A stretch of DNA of 39,318 nucleotides from contig CAIQPS010000098.1 in the NCBI GenBank assembly GCA_903873715.1, positions 1-39,318 of the forward strand, read 5' to 3'. Below are positions 20,319 through 35,712 of this stretch, piece by piece (positions within the stretch are counted from its first letter, which is position 1; the number at the start of each line of letters is the position of its first letter). The notes beneath the pieces were generated by a model that saw nothing but the letters and a program-made list of their open reading frames with translations, ran no database searches and was not told where the DNA came from. The position numbers and the translations under genes were made by a program. This DNA comes from an uncultured Actinomycetes bacterium (GTDB lineage Bacteria > Actinomycetota > Thermoleophilia > RBG-16-64-13).

Positions 20319-20374
20319 GACCTTGCATGACGGCGCCACCGCGCAAGCGGGCGGGCGCCTCCAGCGAGACACAA

Positions 20375-20398
20375 GGGGGCGGCCTTCGGGCCGCCCCC
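20375..20398. terminator. Bidirectional hairpin terminator after acs
   Basis: A perfect ten-base-pair GC stem (20375-20384 with 20389-20398) is closed by a C(TTCG)G tetraloop. A short CT-rich stretch (TCTGCTTTCCC) follows on the plus strand. It lies between the convergent acs and the hddC-gmhB fusion and can serve both. The T-run is weak, but the stem is very stable. Confidence 0.8.
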
Positions 20399-20445
20399 TC
20401 TGCTTTCCCAGACCCCCCGGCGCTTCCACCCGCACAGCCTAGCGG

Positions 20446-29803: not shown

Positions 29804-31114
29804 TCAGGCGATTATCCCAGCCTGTCCCTCTCCCGCCAAATCGCCGCCCTCCGGAGCTGTCGCAGCGCTCGCAGCGCCCGTGGGCGCCCGTAGGAAGCAC
29901 TGCGCGAGCGCCCCGACAAGCATGAGCCCGCCAAACGCCAGGAAAGCCGGGTCGTAGCTCCCGGCCGCGTCGAAGATGAAGCCTGTGGCGAACCCTCCCC
30001 CGATCGCGCCCACCGAGAAAGAGAACGCGACCAGCCCCACCAGGGTCCCGACGGCCCGCAGGCCGAAGAACGGGCCGAGCAATCCCATCCGGACCGGGAT
30101 CAGCGCGGCGAAAGCGAACCCCACCACCACGCCGAGGACGTCGAAGCTCCACGCATCCCCAGCAAGTGCGAAGAGGCACAGCGCGGCACCGTGCAGCGCT
30201 GAGAGGCCGACGAGCGCCCAGCGGTAGCCCATCCTCGTCGTCAGCGGCCCGGCCGCGATAGTGCCGACCGCCATGCCCAGCGCACTGATGGTGAGCACGA
30301 GCGCCGCGGTGGCTTCGGACACGCCCTCGTCGCCGGCGTAGGCGACCACGTGGGAGCTGAAGGCCACGGAGCCCAGCCCGAGCAGGATCCCACTCCAGAT
30401 GAGGATCCAGAAGGCCGAAGTGCGACAGGCCTCCTGCCACGTGAGACCGTGAGAGTCACTCCCGGTATCGGGGGTGCCCGCCGCCCGCGCGGGCCCGTGG
30501 TTATCGGCTCCCGAACCTTCCGGAAGGCGCTTGCCCCCCAACACCGCGATGGCGGGCACCCCGCAGGCGAACACCGCTCCCGCCATCACGAGCCATGTCG
30601 ACCGCCAACCGACGGCGCCTATCGACGCCGCGATGACCGGAGAGAGGACCATCTGCCCGGCGACCGACCCCAGGAACAGCGTCCCGATCGCCAGCGTGCG
30701 CCGCTCGGGACCGAAGGCGCGGGATACCGCGCTGACAGCCGGCGTGTTCGCGCATCCGGCCAGGATGCCTCCCCCGAGGCCGAACAGAAGGTAGAACTGC
30801 CACAGTGCCCCGATCCTCGAGACGAGCAGGTAGGAGACGGCACCGGCCACCACTCCCGGCACGACGGCCACCCGAGTCCCATAGCGGTCGGCCACCCGCC
30901 CCATCAGTATCCCGACAAGGCCGGATACCACCATGAGCACGGACATCGCGCCGGCGGCGGCGCCCCGGGCCCACCCGAACTCGTCTGCGAGCGGTTTCAG
31001 GAAGATGCCGAAGCTCATCTGCGTGCCGGCCGCTCCGAACAACAGCAGGAACGAGACCGCCACCACGGTCCACGCGCCGCGCAGCCTGTCTCCGGAGGCG
31101 GCGCGCTCCTTCAC
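29804..31114 (-). CDS. MFS transporter, oxalate/formate-antiporter-like (downstream paralogue)
   Basis: A 436-residue major facilitator protein with twelve predicted membrane helices and a central hydrophilic loop. The start region TVVAVSFLLLFGAAGTQMSFGIFLKPLADEF and motif A (GRVADRYGTR) match the OFA/monocarboxylate group, so small organic anions are likely substrates (inference). It is clearly similar to the gene just upstream: FGxFLKPLA(D/E)EFGW, a shared loop-2 motif and the same C-terminal GSYDPAFLAFG pattern. The GTG at 31114 lies one base after the upstream stop, so the pair is translationally coupled. An in-frame extension to 31156 would overlap that gene and is rejected. Confidence 0.87.
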   Translation of the reverse strand: MKERAASGDRLRGAWTVVAVSFLLLFGAAGTQMSFGIFLKPLADEFGWARGAAAGAMSVLMVVSGLVGILMGRVADRYGTRVAVVPGVVAGAVSYLLVSRIGALWQFYLLFGLGGGILAGCANTPAVSAVSRAFGPERRTLAIGTLFLGSVAGQMVLSPVIAASIGAVGWRSTWLVMAGAVFACGVPAIAVLGGKRLPEGSGADNHGPARAAGTPDTGSDSHGLTWQEACRTSAFWILIWSGILLGLGSVAFSSHVVAYAGDEGVSEATAALVLTISALGMAVGTIAAGPLTTRMGYRWALVGLSALHGAALCLFALAGDAWSFDVLGVVVGFAFAALIPVRMGLLGPFFGLRAVGTLVGLVAFSFSVGAIGGGFATGFIFDAAGSYDPAFLAFGGLMLVGALAQCFLRAPTGAASAATAPEGGDLAGEGQAGIIA

Positions 31115-31115
31115 G

Positions 31116-32408
31116 TCAGTCCGCCGCCGGGCCGCCCGCGGCGGCCGGGGTACCATCGGCGGCTTCGGCCGACTGATGATATCCAGGGGCTCCCTTCGGC
31201 GCCTTGAGGAAGTAGAGCCAGGCGGCGCCGAGCACCAGCAGGATGCCGAAGATCATGAAAGCCAGGTCGTAGCTGCCCGTCGAGTCGAAGATGTATCCGG
31301 CAAGGAACGGCCCGGCGATGGCGCCCATCGAGAACGATGCGGACGCCAAGCCGATGATGGCGCCCACCGCCCGGGTACCGAACAACGGCGGCACGACCGC
31401 CATCCGCACCGGCACCGCCCCGCTGAACGCGAAGCCGAGGACCGCGCCGAAAAGGTAGAACACCCAGGCCGAAGCGGCCGGGATGAACAGGAACATCGCT
31501 ACGGCGTTGAGAGCTGTGAAGAGGAGCAGGCTCCACCTGTGGCCAAGCCGATGGGTGGTAGCACCCGCGAGCACGCTCCCCAGAGCTCCGCCGACGCTGC
31601 TCACGGTGAAGATGAGAGCGGCCTTCTCGGCCGTCAGACCCACGTCGGTGGCATAGGAGACGATGTGCGCGTTGAAGGCGTAGAACCCCATGCCGATCGC
31701 GGCGCCGGAGGCCATCAGGATCCAGAAGGCCAAGGTATGTGCGCTCTCCGCCGCGGTGAGCCCGCCCGGCCCCGCCCCGCCGGCCTGGTGCCGCTCCGCG
31801 GCCAGCGCCGCCTCCCCGTCGGGATTCTTGCGCGCGAGGGCGAGAGCGGGGAGACCACAGACGAAACCGACTATGGCGAGCACCCACCACCCCGTGCGCC
31901 AACCGTCGGCTTCGATCACTCCGGAGATCACCGGCGAAAGGATCATCTGGCCGGCGATGACCCCCAGCAGGGCGATACCGATGGCAAGCGTCCGCTGCCG
32001 CGGCCCGAACCAGTCAGAGACGATGGTGACCGCCGGGGTGTACGAGCATCCGGCGAGCAGTCCCCCGCCGATCCCGAAGCACACGTAGAACTCCCACAGG
32101 TGGTTCATCCGGGAGAGCAGCAGGTAGCCGATCGCCCCTAGGACCAGCCCCGGAGCGATGGCCGCACGCGCACCCCACTTGTCGGTGGCCTTGCCCATGA
32201 AGATCCCGGCCAGGCCCGAAACGGCCATCAGCAACGACATCCCTCCCGAGACCGCCGCCCGGGACCAGCCGAACTCCTCGGCCAGCGGCTTGAGGAAGAG
32301 CCCGAAGCAGAGTTGTGTGCCGAACGACCCGACCAGCAGGATGAACGACACGGTGACTATCACCCAACCGTACGAGGGACGACGGCCGGTGAGTGCTGGG
32401 GTCTGCAT
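31116..32408 (-). CDS. MFS transporter, oxalate/formate-antiporter-like (upstream paralogue)
   Basis: A 430-residue major facilitator protein with twelve predicted helices. YGWVIVTVSFILLVGSFGTQ opens the first helix. FGLFLKPLAEEFGWSRAAVS and motif A (GKATDKWGAR) follow, and GSYDLAFMIFGILLV is in the last helices. The family contains oxalate:formate and monocarboxylate carriers; the substrate is not predictable. GGAGG lies seven bases before the ATG. A promoter (TTGACC, 17 bases, TACAGT) lies about 55-85 bases upstream. It is the first of two tandem paralogues and probably arose by gene duplication. Confidence 0.88.
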   Translation of the reverse strand: MQTPALTGRRPSYGWVIVTVSFILLVGSFGTQLCFGLFLKPLAEEFGWSRAAVSGGMSLLMAVSGLAGIFMGKATDKWGARAAIAPGLVLGAIGYLLLSRMNHLWEFYVCFGIGGGLLAGCSYTPAVTIVSDWFGPRQRTLAIGIALLGVIAGQMILSPVISGVIEADGWRTGWWVLAIVGFVCGLPALALARKNPDGEAALAAERHQAGGAGPGGLTAAESAHTLAFWILMASGAAIGMGFYAFNAHIVSYATDVGLTAEKAALIFTVSSVGGALGSVLAGATTHRLGHRWSLLLFTALNAVAMFLFIPAASAWVFYLFGAVLGFAFSGAVPVRMAVVPPLFGTRAVGAIIGLASASFSMGAIAGPFLAGYIFDSTGSYDLAFMIFGILLVLGAAWLYFLKAPKGAPGYHQSAEAADGTPAAAGGPAAD

Positions 32409-32505: not shown

Positions 32506-32540
32506 AGAAACAAAAGCGGCCGCTCCGGAGGAGCGGCCGC
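32506..32540 (-). terminator. Rho-independent terminator of the TRAP operon
   Basis: A perfect 11-base-pair GC stem (32540-32530 with 32526-32516, three-base loop) is followed on the minus strand by TTTTGTTTCTT. It lies about 50 bases after the dctM stop. This is the best intrinsic terminator in the window and separates the TRAP operon from the MFS promoter. Confidence 0.9.
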
Positions 32541-32588: not shown

Positions 32589-33893
32589 TCAGTAAGTGAC
32601 GAGACTCGGCAACCAGGTGGCTATCTTCGGGAACAGCAGCAGCAGCGCCGCGAGGATCACCATCCCCACAAGGAAGAACATCGCCCCTTTGAAGATCTTG
32701 CCCATGGGCACGTCGGGCGCCACGCCTTTGATGATGTAGACGTTGATGCCCACCGGCGGGGTTATCACCCCCATCTCGACGACCAGAACGATGATCACCC
32801 CGAACCAGATGGGGTCGAACCCCAGGGCCACCACCGTCGGATAGAGGATGGGCACGGTCAGTGTGACCATGGCCAGGGAGTCCATGAAGCACCCGGCCAC
32901 GAGGTACATGGCCAGGATGAGGATCATGACGACGTTCGGCGGGACCGGCAGGCCGCCCAGGAAGTCCGACACCGCCCCGGGGATGCCGGTGACGGCCATG
33001 AAGTGTCCGAACACCGTGGCGCCGGCCACGATGGTCATGATCATGGCGGTGATGAGCAGGGTGTCCTTGATGGCATACCAGAACTTCTTGAGATCCAGCG
33101 ATCGGCGCGCGACGCCGATGACTATTGCCGCCGCCGTGCCCGCGCCCGCCGCCTGCGTCGGGCTGAACAGACCGGCGAACAGACCGCCGAGAACGAGCGC
33201 GAACAGGAACAGCATCTCGAACAGCCCGGTGATCCCCATGAGTTTCTGTTTCATCGTGGTGCTTCCGCCGGCCGGCGTCGCTGTGGGCTTGAAGACGCTC
33301 CATATCAACACCGCGCAGATGAACAAGAAGGCCAGCACCAGCCCCGGCACCACCCCTGCCACGAACAGTTTCCCTATGGACTGTTCGGACAGGATGCCGT
33401 AGATGATGAATATGGTGCTCGGCGGGATCATGATGCCGAGGCTGCCGGCGGCTGCCATGCAGCCGCAGGCCAGGCCGGGGTCGTAGCCGTACCGGCGCAT
33501 CTCGGGGATGGCCACTTTGCCCATGGCTGCGGCGGTGGCGCTCGTCGAGCCGCATATAGCTGAGAACCCTGCGGTCGCGACGATCGTGGCGATTGCCAGA
33601 CCGCCCCGGGCCTTCCCGAACAGGATGTATGCGCCGTCGTACAATCGCCCGCTCATGCCTGCATAGAACGCCACGCTCCCCATGAAGACGAACATGGGGA
33701 TGACCGTGAGGTTGTAACTCGACCACGTATCCCAGAAGTCGCGGGCGAGGATGCTCAGCCCGCTGTTGGCGCCTTTGGTGACCATGAACCCGGCGACGCC
33801 CACGAGAGCCATGGTGAAGCCCACGGGCATGCCCAGGAGGAAGATGACCACCAGGACGGCGACACCTATGATGCCGATGGTCACCGGGTCCAT
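32589..33893 (-). CDS. dctM: TRAP transporter large permease (DctM)
   Basis: A 434-residue membrane protein with about a dozen hydrophobic segments. It forms the transport channel of a tripartite ATP-independent periplasmic transporter and moves the ligand together with Na+. Visible family motifs include GMPVGFTMALVGVAG, PMFVFMGSVAFYAGMS, ATAGFSAICGSTSATAAAMG and GSLGIMIPPSTIFIIYG, plus the C-terminal EMGVITPPVGINVYIIKGV. Its ATG lies inside the dctQ 3' end (13-base overlap), so the two permease genes are coupled. A strong terminator follows. Together with dctP and dctQ the transporter is complete. Confidence 0.94.
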   Translation of the reverse strand: MDPVTIGIIGVAVLVVIFLLGMPVGFTMALVGVAGFMVTKGANSGLSILARDFWDTWSSYNLTVIPMFVFMGSVAFYAGMSGRLYDGAYILFGKARGGLAIATIVATAGFSAICGSTSATAAAMGKVAIPEMRRYGYDPGLACGCMAAAGSLGIMIPPSTIFIIYGILSEQSIGKLFVAGVVPGLVLAFLFICAVLIWSVFKPTATPAGGSTTMKQKLMGITGLFEMLFLFALVLGGLFAGLFSPTQAAGAGTAAAIVIGVARRSLDLKKFWYAIKDTLLITAMIMTIVAGATVFGHFMAVTGIPGAVSDFLGGLPVPPNVVMILILAMYLVAGCFMDSLAMVTLTVPILYPTVVALGFDPIWFGVIIVLVVEMGVITPPVGINVYIIKGVAPDVPMGKIFKGAMFFLVGMVILAALLLLFPKIATWLPSLVTY

Positions 33894-34444
33894 TGCTTAC
33901 CTGCCTTGATTATGGTCCGCACGAACTGCAGCACCAGGATCAGGAATGTCGCCAGGAAACAGACTGCCATCCCATACACGAAGGGATAGAAGGGGATCTT
34001 CTGCGTCATGGAGACCTCTCCGGACGAACGGAGAAGGCCTGCGTACCGGAAACTGTAGACCATGAGCAGCGCCACCAGAGCGACGCTCATCAGCGCCGTG
34101 AAACACTCGATGACCAGTTTCAGACGGCGCGGGAACGCCTCTACGATGAAGTCGACCGCCACGTGCCCTCGCATGACCTGCGTGAAGGGCACGGCGAAGG
34201 CGATCGCTACGACCGCGAGGAACGCGACGTACTCGATGCCCCCCGGGATGGGGTTGGAAAAGATCTTGATGGCCAGCACGTCCGCCACGATGAGGAGCGA
34301 CATCCCCACCAGGCCGGCGCCCGCTATCCAGAACAGGACCTTCGTGAACAGGGTGGTGTACTTATCCAGTGCTCCCAGGACGCCCTTGGCCGGCTCGCCT
34401 GCACGTATCGCCAACGGCTCCTGATCAGGAGGCAGCATCTCCAT
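33881..34444 (-). CDS. dctQ: TRAP transporter small permease (DctQ)
   Basis: A 187-residue protein with four predicted membrane helices, the DctQ layout. An N-terminal soluble stretch of about 30 residues is followed by VLFWIAGAGLVGMSLLIVADV, then GGIEYVAFLAVVAIAFAVPF, RGHVAVDFIVEAFPRR (a conserved motif of the family) and two more helices. It assembles with DctM in the membrane and guides substrate delivery from DctP. GGGGAGG precedes the ATG by four bases, and that site can be paired within an alternative hairpin, so translation may be controlled. It overlaps dctM by 13 bases. Confidence 0.92.
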   Translation of the reverse strand: MEMLPPDQEPLAIRAGEPAKGVLGALDKYTTLFTKVLFWIAGAGLVGMSLLIVADVLAIKIFSNPIPGGIEYVAFLAVVAIAFAVPFTQVMRGHVAVDFIVEAFPRRLKLVIECFTALMSVALVALLMVYSFRYAGLLRSSGEVSMTQKIPFYPFVYGMAVCFLATFLILVLQFVRTIIKAGKQWTR

Positions 34445-34448
34445 AGGA

Positions 34449-34503
34449 CCTCCCCGCCATGCGCATCAGGCGGGGAGGCGAGGCGGCCGCCTCGCCTCCC
34501 CGC
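34449..34503 (-). promoter_or_regulatory. Competing hairpins in the dctP-dctQ spacer (possible RNA switch)
   Basis: On the minus (mRNA) strand the spacer first forms a 34-base perfect palindrome (34503-34470). Its second half, CCTCCCCGCC (34478-34469), can instead pair perfectly over ten bases with GGCGGGGAGG (34458-34449). The latter contains the dctQ ribosome-binding site, GGGGAGG, four bases from the ATG. The two pairings cannot coexist: the first leaves the site free, the second hides it. No U-run follows, so it is not an intrinsic terminator. A third small hairpin (34530-34516, six-base stem) directly follows the dctP stop. Confidence 0.6.
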
Positions 34504-34533
34504 GGCTCGATAGTACGGTCGGCCCGACCGCTG

Positions 34534-35712
34534 CTACTTGGCCGGAGCCTTGACGTTCGCGTCGACCCAGGTCAGGCAGTCGGCTTCCGAGACCTGGTTC
34601 TGGGTCCAGTACTTGATGCGCTCCGCGATGAATGCGGAATAGTCGTCGTTGAGACCGGCGGCTTTCATGTCCGCGATCTTCTTGTCGACGATGGGCTTGA
34701 TAGCGGTGGCCCATTTGCCGGCTTCATCGGGTCCAAGATCGATGATCTCGCGGCCGGGCTGGGCCTTGAGGGCTGCGACGCCGTTGGCGTCTAGCGCGGA
34801 GGCGACCTTGGCCCAGTACTCGACGTACTCGGTGCTCACGTCGGTGAAGACCTGCTGCACGTCGGCGGGAAGCGAGTTCCACTTGTCGTTGTTCATGATC
34901 AGGTACATCGAGGTGATGGAGCCGACCGAGAAGCAGTTGGTCACGTACTTGACCACCTCAGCCTGCTTCCACCCCGCCAGCACTTCGCGCGGCGCCAGGC
35001 TGCCGTCGATGACACCCTTGGACATGAGTTCGTACGCTTCGTTCTGGGCGGCGGCGTAGCCTTCAGCGCCCAGAGCTTTGGCGATGGCCGCGCCGACCCC
35101 GGTCGAGCGGATGACCATGCCTTTGAGGTCTTCGAGCGTCTTGACCGGTTTCTTCACGGTCAGTATCAACTGCGGCCCGGTCCCGTAGAAGGCCAGCGGA
35201 TGGACCTTCCCGAGCTCGGCCGGCTTGAACTTCTGGAAGTAGTCGTTGACCACGTGAGTGTCGACATAGCCCGCCGGATAGCCGTTCGGGTAGTCGAGCA
35301 GGTCCATCACCGGGAAGATACCCGGTGTGTACGCGAACACGGAGAAGCCGAGGTCGGAGATGCCGGTCACCACACCGTCGTAGACCTTGTTGGCGGCGGT
35401 GAGAGAGGCACCGGGCAGATACTCGAAGGTGACCGCGCCGTTGGTGCGCTTTGTGATCTCCGCCATCCACATCTCACCCACGATGGCGATCTTGTTGGTC
35501 GCCGGGAAGAACGTGTTGAAGGTGAACTTCCACTTGCCCGCCGGGTAGGTCATCGCTGTCGACGGCGCAGTGGTCGACGCACCTCCAGTGGTGGCCGGAC
35601 CGGCAGTGGTGGGTGGAGACGTGCTGGTCGTCTCCTCGCCTGAGCCGCATGCGGCGAGGACCACCCCCAGTGCAAAGACGAGTACCAACCCAAGCAGCAG
35701 CACCCTCTTCAT
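34534..35712 (-). CDS. dctP: TRAP transporter substrate-binding lipoprotein (DctP family)
   Basis: A 392-residue binding lipoprotein. The signal MKRVLLLGLVLVFALGVV ends in the lipobox LAAC with Cys22. A Thr/Ser-rich linker (about 26-54) leads to the DctP fold. The conserved arginine that clamps the ligand carboxylate is probably Arg202 in GMVIRSTGVG. AAAQNEAYELMSKGVIDGSLAP is the usual family stretch. Ligands are generally organic acids; the exact one is unknown. The ATG at 35712 is preceded by AAGGAGG with an eight-base gap; the frame is open further upstream but without family residues. It is first in dctP-dctQ-dctM. Confidence 0.93.
   Translation of the reverse strand: MKRVLLLGLVLVFALGVVLAACGSGEETTSTSPPTTAGPATTGGASTTAPSTAMTYPAGKWKFTFNTFFPATNKIAIVGEMWMAEITKRTNGAVTFEYLPGASLTAANKVYDGVVTGISDLGFSVFAYTPGIFPVMDLLDYPNGYPAGYVDTHVVNDYFQKFKPAELGKVHPLAFYGTGPQLILTVKKPVKTLEDLKGMVIRSTGVGAAIAKALGAEGYAAAQNEAYELMSKGVIDGSLAPREVLAGWKQAEVVKYVTNCFSVGSITSMYLIMNNDKWNSLPADVQQVFTDVSTEYVEYWAKVASALDANGVAALKAQPGREIIDLGPDEAGKWATAIKPIVDKKIADMKAAGLNDDYSAFIAERIKYWTQNQVSEADCLTWVDANVKAPAK

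Follow-up and report, generated by a model that had tools for sequence, protein, structure and literature searches.

A hairpin located immediately after dctP is a recurrent feature of many TRAP operons in Actinomycetota and Alphaproteobacteria. In the stretch of DNA analyzed here (39,318 nucleotides, referred to as the window), it takes the form of a perfect palindrome between dctP and dctQ. By analogy with published operons, we consider it probable that this palindrome acts in RNA as an intercistronic hairpin without a U tract, shielding the dctP message at its 3' end and raising the level of DctP over that of DctQM.

The operon and the dctP-dctQ hairpin

The features of the operon and of its dctP-dctQ spacer are as follows.

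34534..35712, minus strand: dctP, TRAP substrate-binding protein (PF03480, E 2.9e-40)
34536-34534, minus strand: dctP stop codon, TAG
34516..34530, minus strand: small second hairpin, CGGTCG-GGC-CGACCG, directly 3' of the dctP stop codon (from the sequence)
34503-34470, minus strand: perfect 34-nt palindrome with 17-nt arms, GCGGGGAGGCGAGGCGGCCGCCTCGCCTCCCCGC, in the dctP-dctQ spacer (from the sequence)
34469..34478, minus strand: stretch of the 3' arm of the hairpin, with one additional base, able to pair with the Shine-Dalgarno segment (predicted share at most 0.2%)
34449..34458, minus strand: segment GGCGGGGAGG, which contains the dctQ Shine-Dalgarno (SD), all ten bases complementary to 34469-34478; pairing not kept in orthologs
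33881..34444, minus strand: dctQ, TRAP small permease (PF04290, E 1.7e-18), with its ATG at 34444
32589..33893, minus strand: dctM, TRAP large permease, overlapping the end of dctQ (PF06808, E 3.3e-95)
32516..32540, minus strand: 11-bp terminator-like hairpin plus TTTTGTTT, 3' of dctM, of the ordinary U-tract type

The dctP product has a LAAC lipobox (identified by eye) and is likely to be a lipoprotein. Downstream of the TRAP operon and its terminator, on the same strand, lie two adjoining MFS-type transporter genes (29804-32408), one of them confirmed by Pfam.

The palindrome, which a reading made from the sequence alone had already pointed out, was confirmed at 34470-34503 on the minus strand. 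As RNA it is predicted to form a 15-bp stem capped by a GGCC loop (-36.4 kcal/mol), beginning 30 nt past the dctP stop codon, and it is the longest perfect hairpin of the window (15 bp, as compared with at most 11 bp in 20 whole-window dinucleotide shuffles). The smaller hairpin at 34516..34530 shows up in longer-context folds. Elsewhere in the window, an 11-bp hairpin with a 4-nt loop (AGGGGGCGGCC TTCG GGCCGCCCCCT, positions 20374-20399) equals the best shuffle hairpin and is possibly a terminator. An Rfam scan of the window gave no match.

Conservation in orthologous spacers

We compared the spacer with its orthologs in four genomes of the same family (DctQ 55-66% identical); the search turned up no genome from its own genus. 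All four ortholog spacers contain a homologous hairpin that shares the core GAGGCG. In the alignment used to score paired changes (five orthologs, stem of 15 pairs), 97.3% of the cells pair, as compared with 40-55% in slid controls, and changes on both sides are seen at 5 of the 15 pairs, a number that was reached in 3 of 500 shuffles (slid controls 0-2). Because of these two-sided changes, together with the excess of pairing over the slid controls, the stem is probably under selection.

We also considered whether a hairpin formed by the SD and dctQ codons 4-7 is conserved, but set this aside because the folds vary from ortholog to ortholog. At the start of dctQ (window positions 34453-34442), GGAGGTCCTATG is identical in the window and in the orthologs L128, L039 and L134, while most other spacer sequence has diverged.

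Survey of TRAP operons

We surveyed the P-to-Q, Q-to-M and M-to-P spacers of 120 Actinomycetota TRAP loci and two database loci (an ortholog contig and a Dehalococcoidia contig), counting a hairpin as strong if it was reached by no more than 1 of 100 dinucleotide shuffles. Strong hairpins are present in 57 of 89 P-to-Q spacers and in 1 of 25 Q-to-M spacers; about one-third of P-to-Q spacers lack one by this shuffle measure. With independent gene calling, hairpins were found in 37/56 P-to-Q and 12/18 P-to-other spacers, as compared with 0/17 Q-to-M, 1/31 other-to-P and 5/24 non-TRAP spacers, and with 19 of the 119 spacers that follow any gene other than P (P versus non-P, Fisher p = 1.6e-12). 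M-to-any spacers have hairpins as well (11/44), as operon ends would be expected to. Of ten P-to-Q spacers 50 nt or longer from alphaproteobacterial plasmid TRAP operons, six have hairpins reached by 0/200 shuffles and two further hairpins were reached by 4-8/200, for a total of 8/10. The genome has a second TRAP operon (L151), which also contains the hairpin.

The arm sequences of the TRAP hairpins vary between operons while the pairing stays, and the hairpin lies a median of 16 nt from the dctP stop (57 hairpins). G-U pairs outnumber A-C mismatches in the stems (25 versus 12, p = 0.047), an excess that weakly favors a sense RNA over a DNA palindrome.

Two further arrangements were seen in the survey. 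In operons with the rarer order Q-M-P (L156, L157, L148 and L110), the M-to-P spacers contain imperfect hairpins of 10-11 bp immediately ahead of dctP; the arms in L156 (TTCGGTGAGCCT) and L157 (TTCGGCAGGCCT) resemble each other. In the Dehalococcoidia locus (L042, JAUWIX010000022.1), an SD-like GGGAGGTGATTTC lies in the hairpin and loop of the dctP-dctQ spacer, approximately 40 nt upstream of the putative dctQ ATG, where it could be a displayed or a buried ribosome site.

The main rival to a protective hairpin is partial transcription termination (attenuation) 3' of dctP, with read-through into dctQM; we regard this as possible but unlikely. A GC-rich hairpin past the stop codon is consistent with it, and it would yield the same protein ratio. 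Judged by their tails, most post-dctP hairpins of TRAP operons are not intrinsic terminators, because only 3 of the 57 8-nt tails contain at least five T; at least four T are found in 8 of 57, and in this minority of operons with U-rich tails, which speaks against a uniformly protective reading, partial termination may occur. In the window, however, the hairpin is followed by CTGATGCG, with two T among eight, rather than by the U run of an intrinsic terminator, and the operon has a proper U-tract terminator at its end (32540-32516).

Complementarity to the dctQ Shine-Dalgarno

The sequence-only reading had proposed mutually exclusive hairpins that hide or expose the dctQ SD: the hairpin would keep the site free, and opening or cutting it would release the 3' arm to pair with the SD, turning the permeases off. 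The sequence elements on which this proposal was built are present, in that GCGGGGAGG of the 5' arm recurs at the dctQ SD (34457-34449) and 34449-34458 and 34469-34478, as an inverted pair, are complementary at ten of ten positions. Taken alone, the match is unusual (10 Watson-Crick pairs are reached by 0.06% of swapped arm/SD pairs, placing it beyond 99.9% of them), but it is the most extreme of the 57 loci and had been picked out from the whole window. In folds of RNA fragments that begin in the hairpin loop, the SD is predicted to be sequestered (-26 to -33 kcal/mol across these fragments).

The intact RNA is predicted to behave differently. In the fold of a 97-nt segment the main hairpin has a probability of 0.997 and the alternative 0.002, the forced structures being 3.9 kcal/mol apart, and across fold contexts the main hairpin stays above 0.99 and the alternative between 0.000005 and 0.002, so that the equilibrium share of the alternative would be no more than about 0.002. 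The dominance of the main hairpin agrees with the suggestion that the site is free by default, but in longer-context folds the SD pairs for the most part with the beginning of dctQ. Given these fold probabilities and the folds of the loop-start fragments, the models describe an arm-SD pairing that is physically possible and, as long as the 5' arm is present, negligible.

Comparison between genomes argues against the switch, in that the orthologs keep the hairpin but not the competing arms. In the four ortholog spacers the longest perfect complement between arm and SD is 4, 5, 4 and 5 bp, which is the level of chance (swap means 4.3-4.6), and the ortholog dctQ SDs are AAGGAGG or AGGGAGG, not GCGGGGAGG; a lack of conservation of the competing arms in relatives is the outcome that the sequence-only reading itself had named as contradicting it. 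Across the 57 hairpin spacers, the duplex energy of the SD with its own 3' arm lies at a mean percentile of 0.47 of swapped pairs (0.49 for the 5' arm), and the Watson-Crick run averages 4.25 for own pairs versus 3.99 for swapped ones (58 of 2000 permutations reach 4.25), an excess of which much is supplied by the window's single run of 10. The SD pairing of L151 is unremarkable (swap fraction 0.57), and no trigger able to open the hairpin was seen in the sequence.

These comparisons suggest no general SD-hiding role for TRAP hairpins. We rejected the switch as the main explanation on the swap tests and the orthologs, and consider it very improbable; the arm-SD match is most likely an incidental, lineage-private likeness of two G-rich segments, the arm and the SD. 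We give as little credence to a narrower version, in which the hairpin doubles, within this genus, as a processing-triggered off switch: an RNase cut would free the 3' arm, the dctQ SD would be paired 10/10, and the leftover dctQM fragment would be silenced, increasing the excess of DctP. An SD switch would be of importance only if shown.

That the element is an operator or other protein-bound DNA palindrome, or a REP-like dispersed repeat, is scarcely credible: it is a perfect dyad in DNA, but it has no second copy in the genome (so it lacks the many copies of a REP-like element, and a dispersed repeat was rejected), the arm sequence varies between operons with pairing kept, and the location is after dctP rather than before the operon (other-to-P 1/31).

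A probable protected 3' end for the dctP message

The reading that we favor is protection of the dctP message. The hairpin at 34470-34503 has the structural properties of protective hairpins: it is stable, it stands directly after the dctP stop inside the operon, it has no U tract, and its structure is kept in orthologs. We infer protection of the malE type because the location 3' of the binding-protein gene (regardless of the next gene), the conserved stem of free sequence and the absence of a U tract match published hairpins. Once the polycistronic mRNA is cut or begins to decay within dctQM, 3'-to-5' exonucleases would halt at the hairpin, and the dctP part would outlive the dctQM part, giving more DctP than DctQM. 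The hairpin would thus work through decay, rather than through partial termination or as a processing site, and would presumably set the protein ratio. Of the earlier interpretation, the remark that the hairpin might keep DctP high relative to DctQM is in line with the position-specific recurrence after dctP, with the effect on the ratio itself still conjectural, whereas the SD switch is unsupported.

If this is correct, then TRAP importers share with ABC importers a structural trick for producing binding protein in excess over permease, and a hairpin after the binding-protein gene that is free in sequence and constrained in shape would be a simple, testable rule for many TRAP operons. It would also help annotation to distinguish decay-control hairpins from terminators. 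Our literature search found no paper giving a post-dctP hairpin as a rule of TRAP operons; older work on Rhodobacter dctPQM could hold an earlier mention.

Comparison with known systems

Translational attenuators of the ermC type sequester the SD through alternative hairpins. As in these, two segments here could compete for one partner; unlike in these, no leader peptide or ligand is seen, the competing arms are unconserved and the alternative is predicted to be barely populated.

Intercistronic protective hairpins are a known kind of element. The malE hairpins are REP sequences, repeated in the genome, whereas the hairpin described here is unique in its genome, belongs to a TRAP rather than an ABC importer, and affects decay only by supposition. 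Like the E. coli malE-malF intercistronic protective hairpins (Newbury 1987, as cited in PMC5927463), it lacks a U tract and lies between binding-protein and permease genes, in a system in which the binding protein is needed in excess. Hairpin protection has been published for malEFG and four other E. coli ABC importers, the stabilized gene always being that of the binding protein, and the 3'-protective hairpins published for operons whose segments decay at different rates include 3' ends without a U tract (PMC5927463). The intercistronic stem-loop of the Rhodobacter capsulatus puf operon is an mRNA decay terminator responsible for unequal expression within the operon (Chen 1988, as cited in PMC5927463). 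The puf operon is a photosynthesis operon, of unrelated sequence, but both stem-loops are intercistronic within one operon, and the decay-terminator function shown for puf is the one that we propose for the hairpin after dctP.
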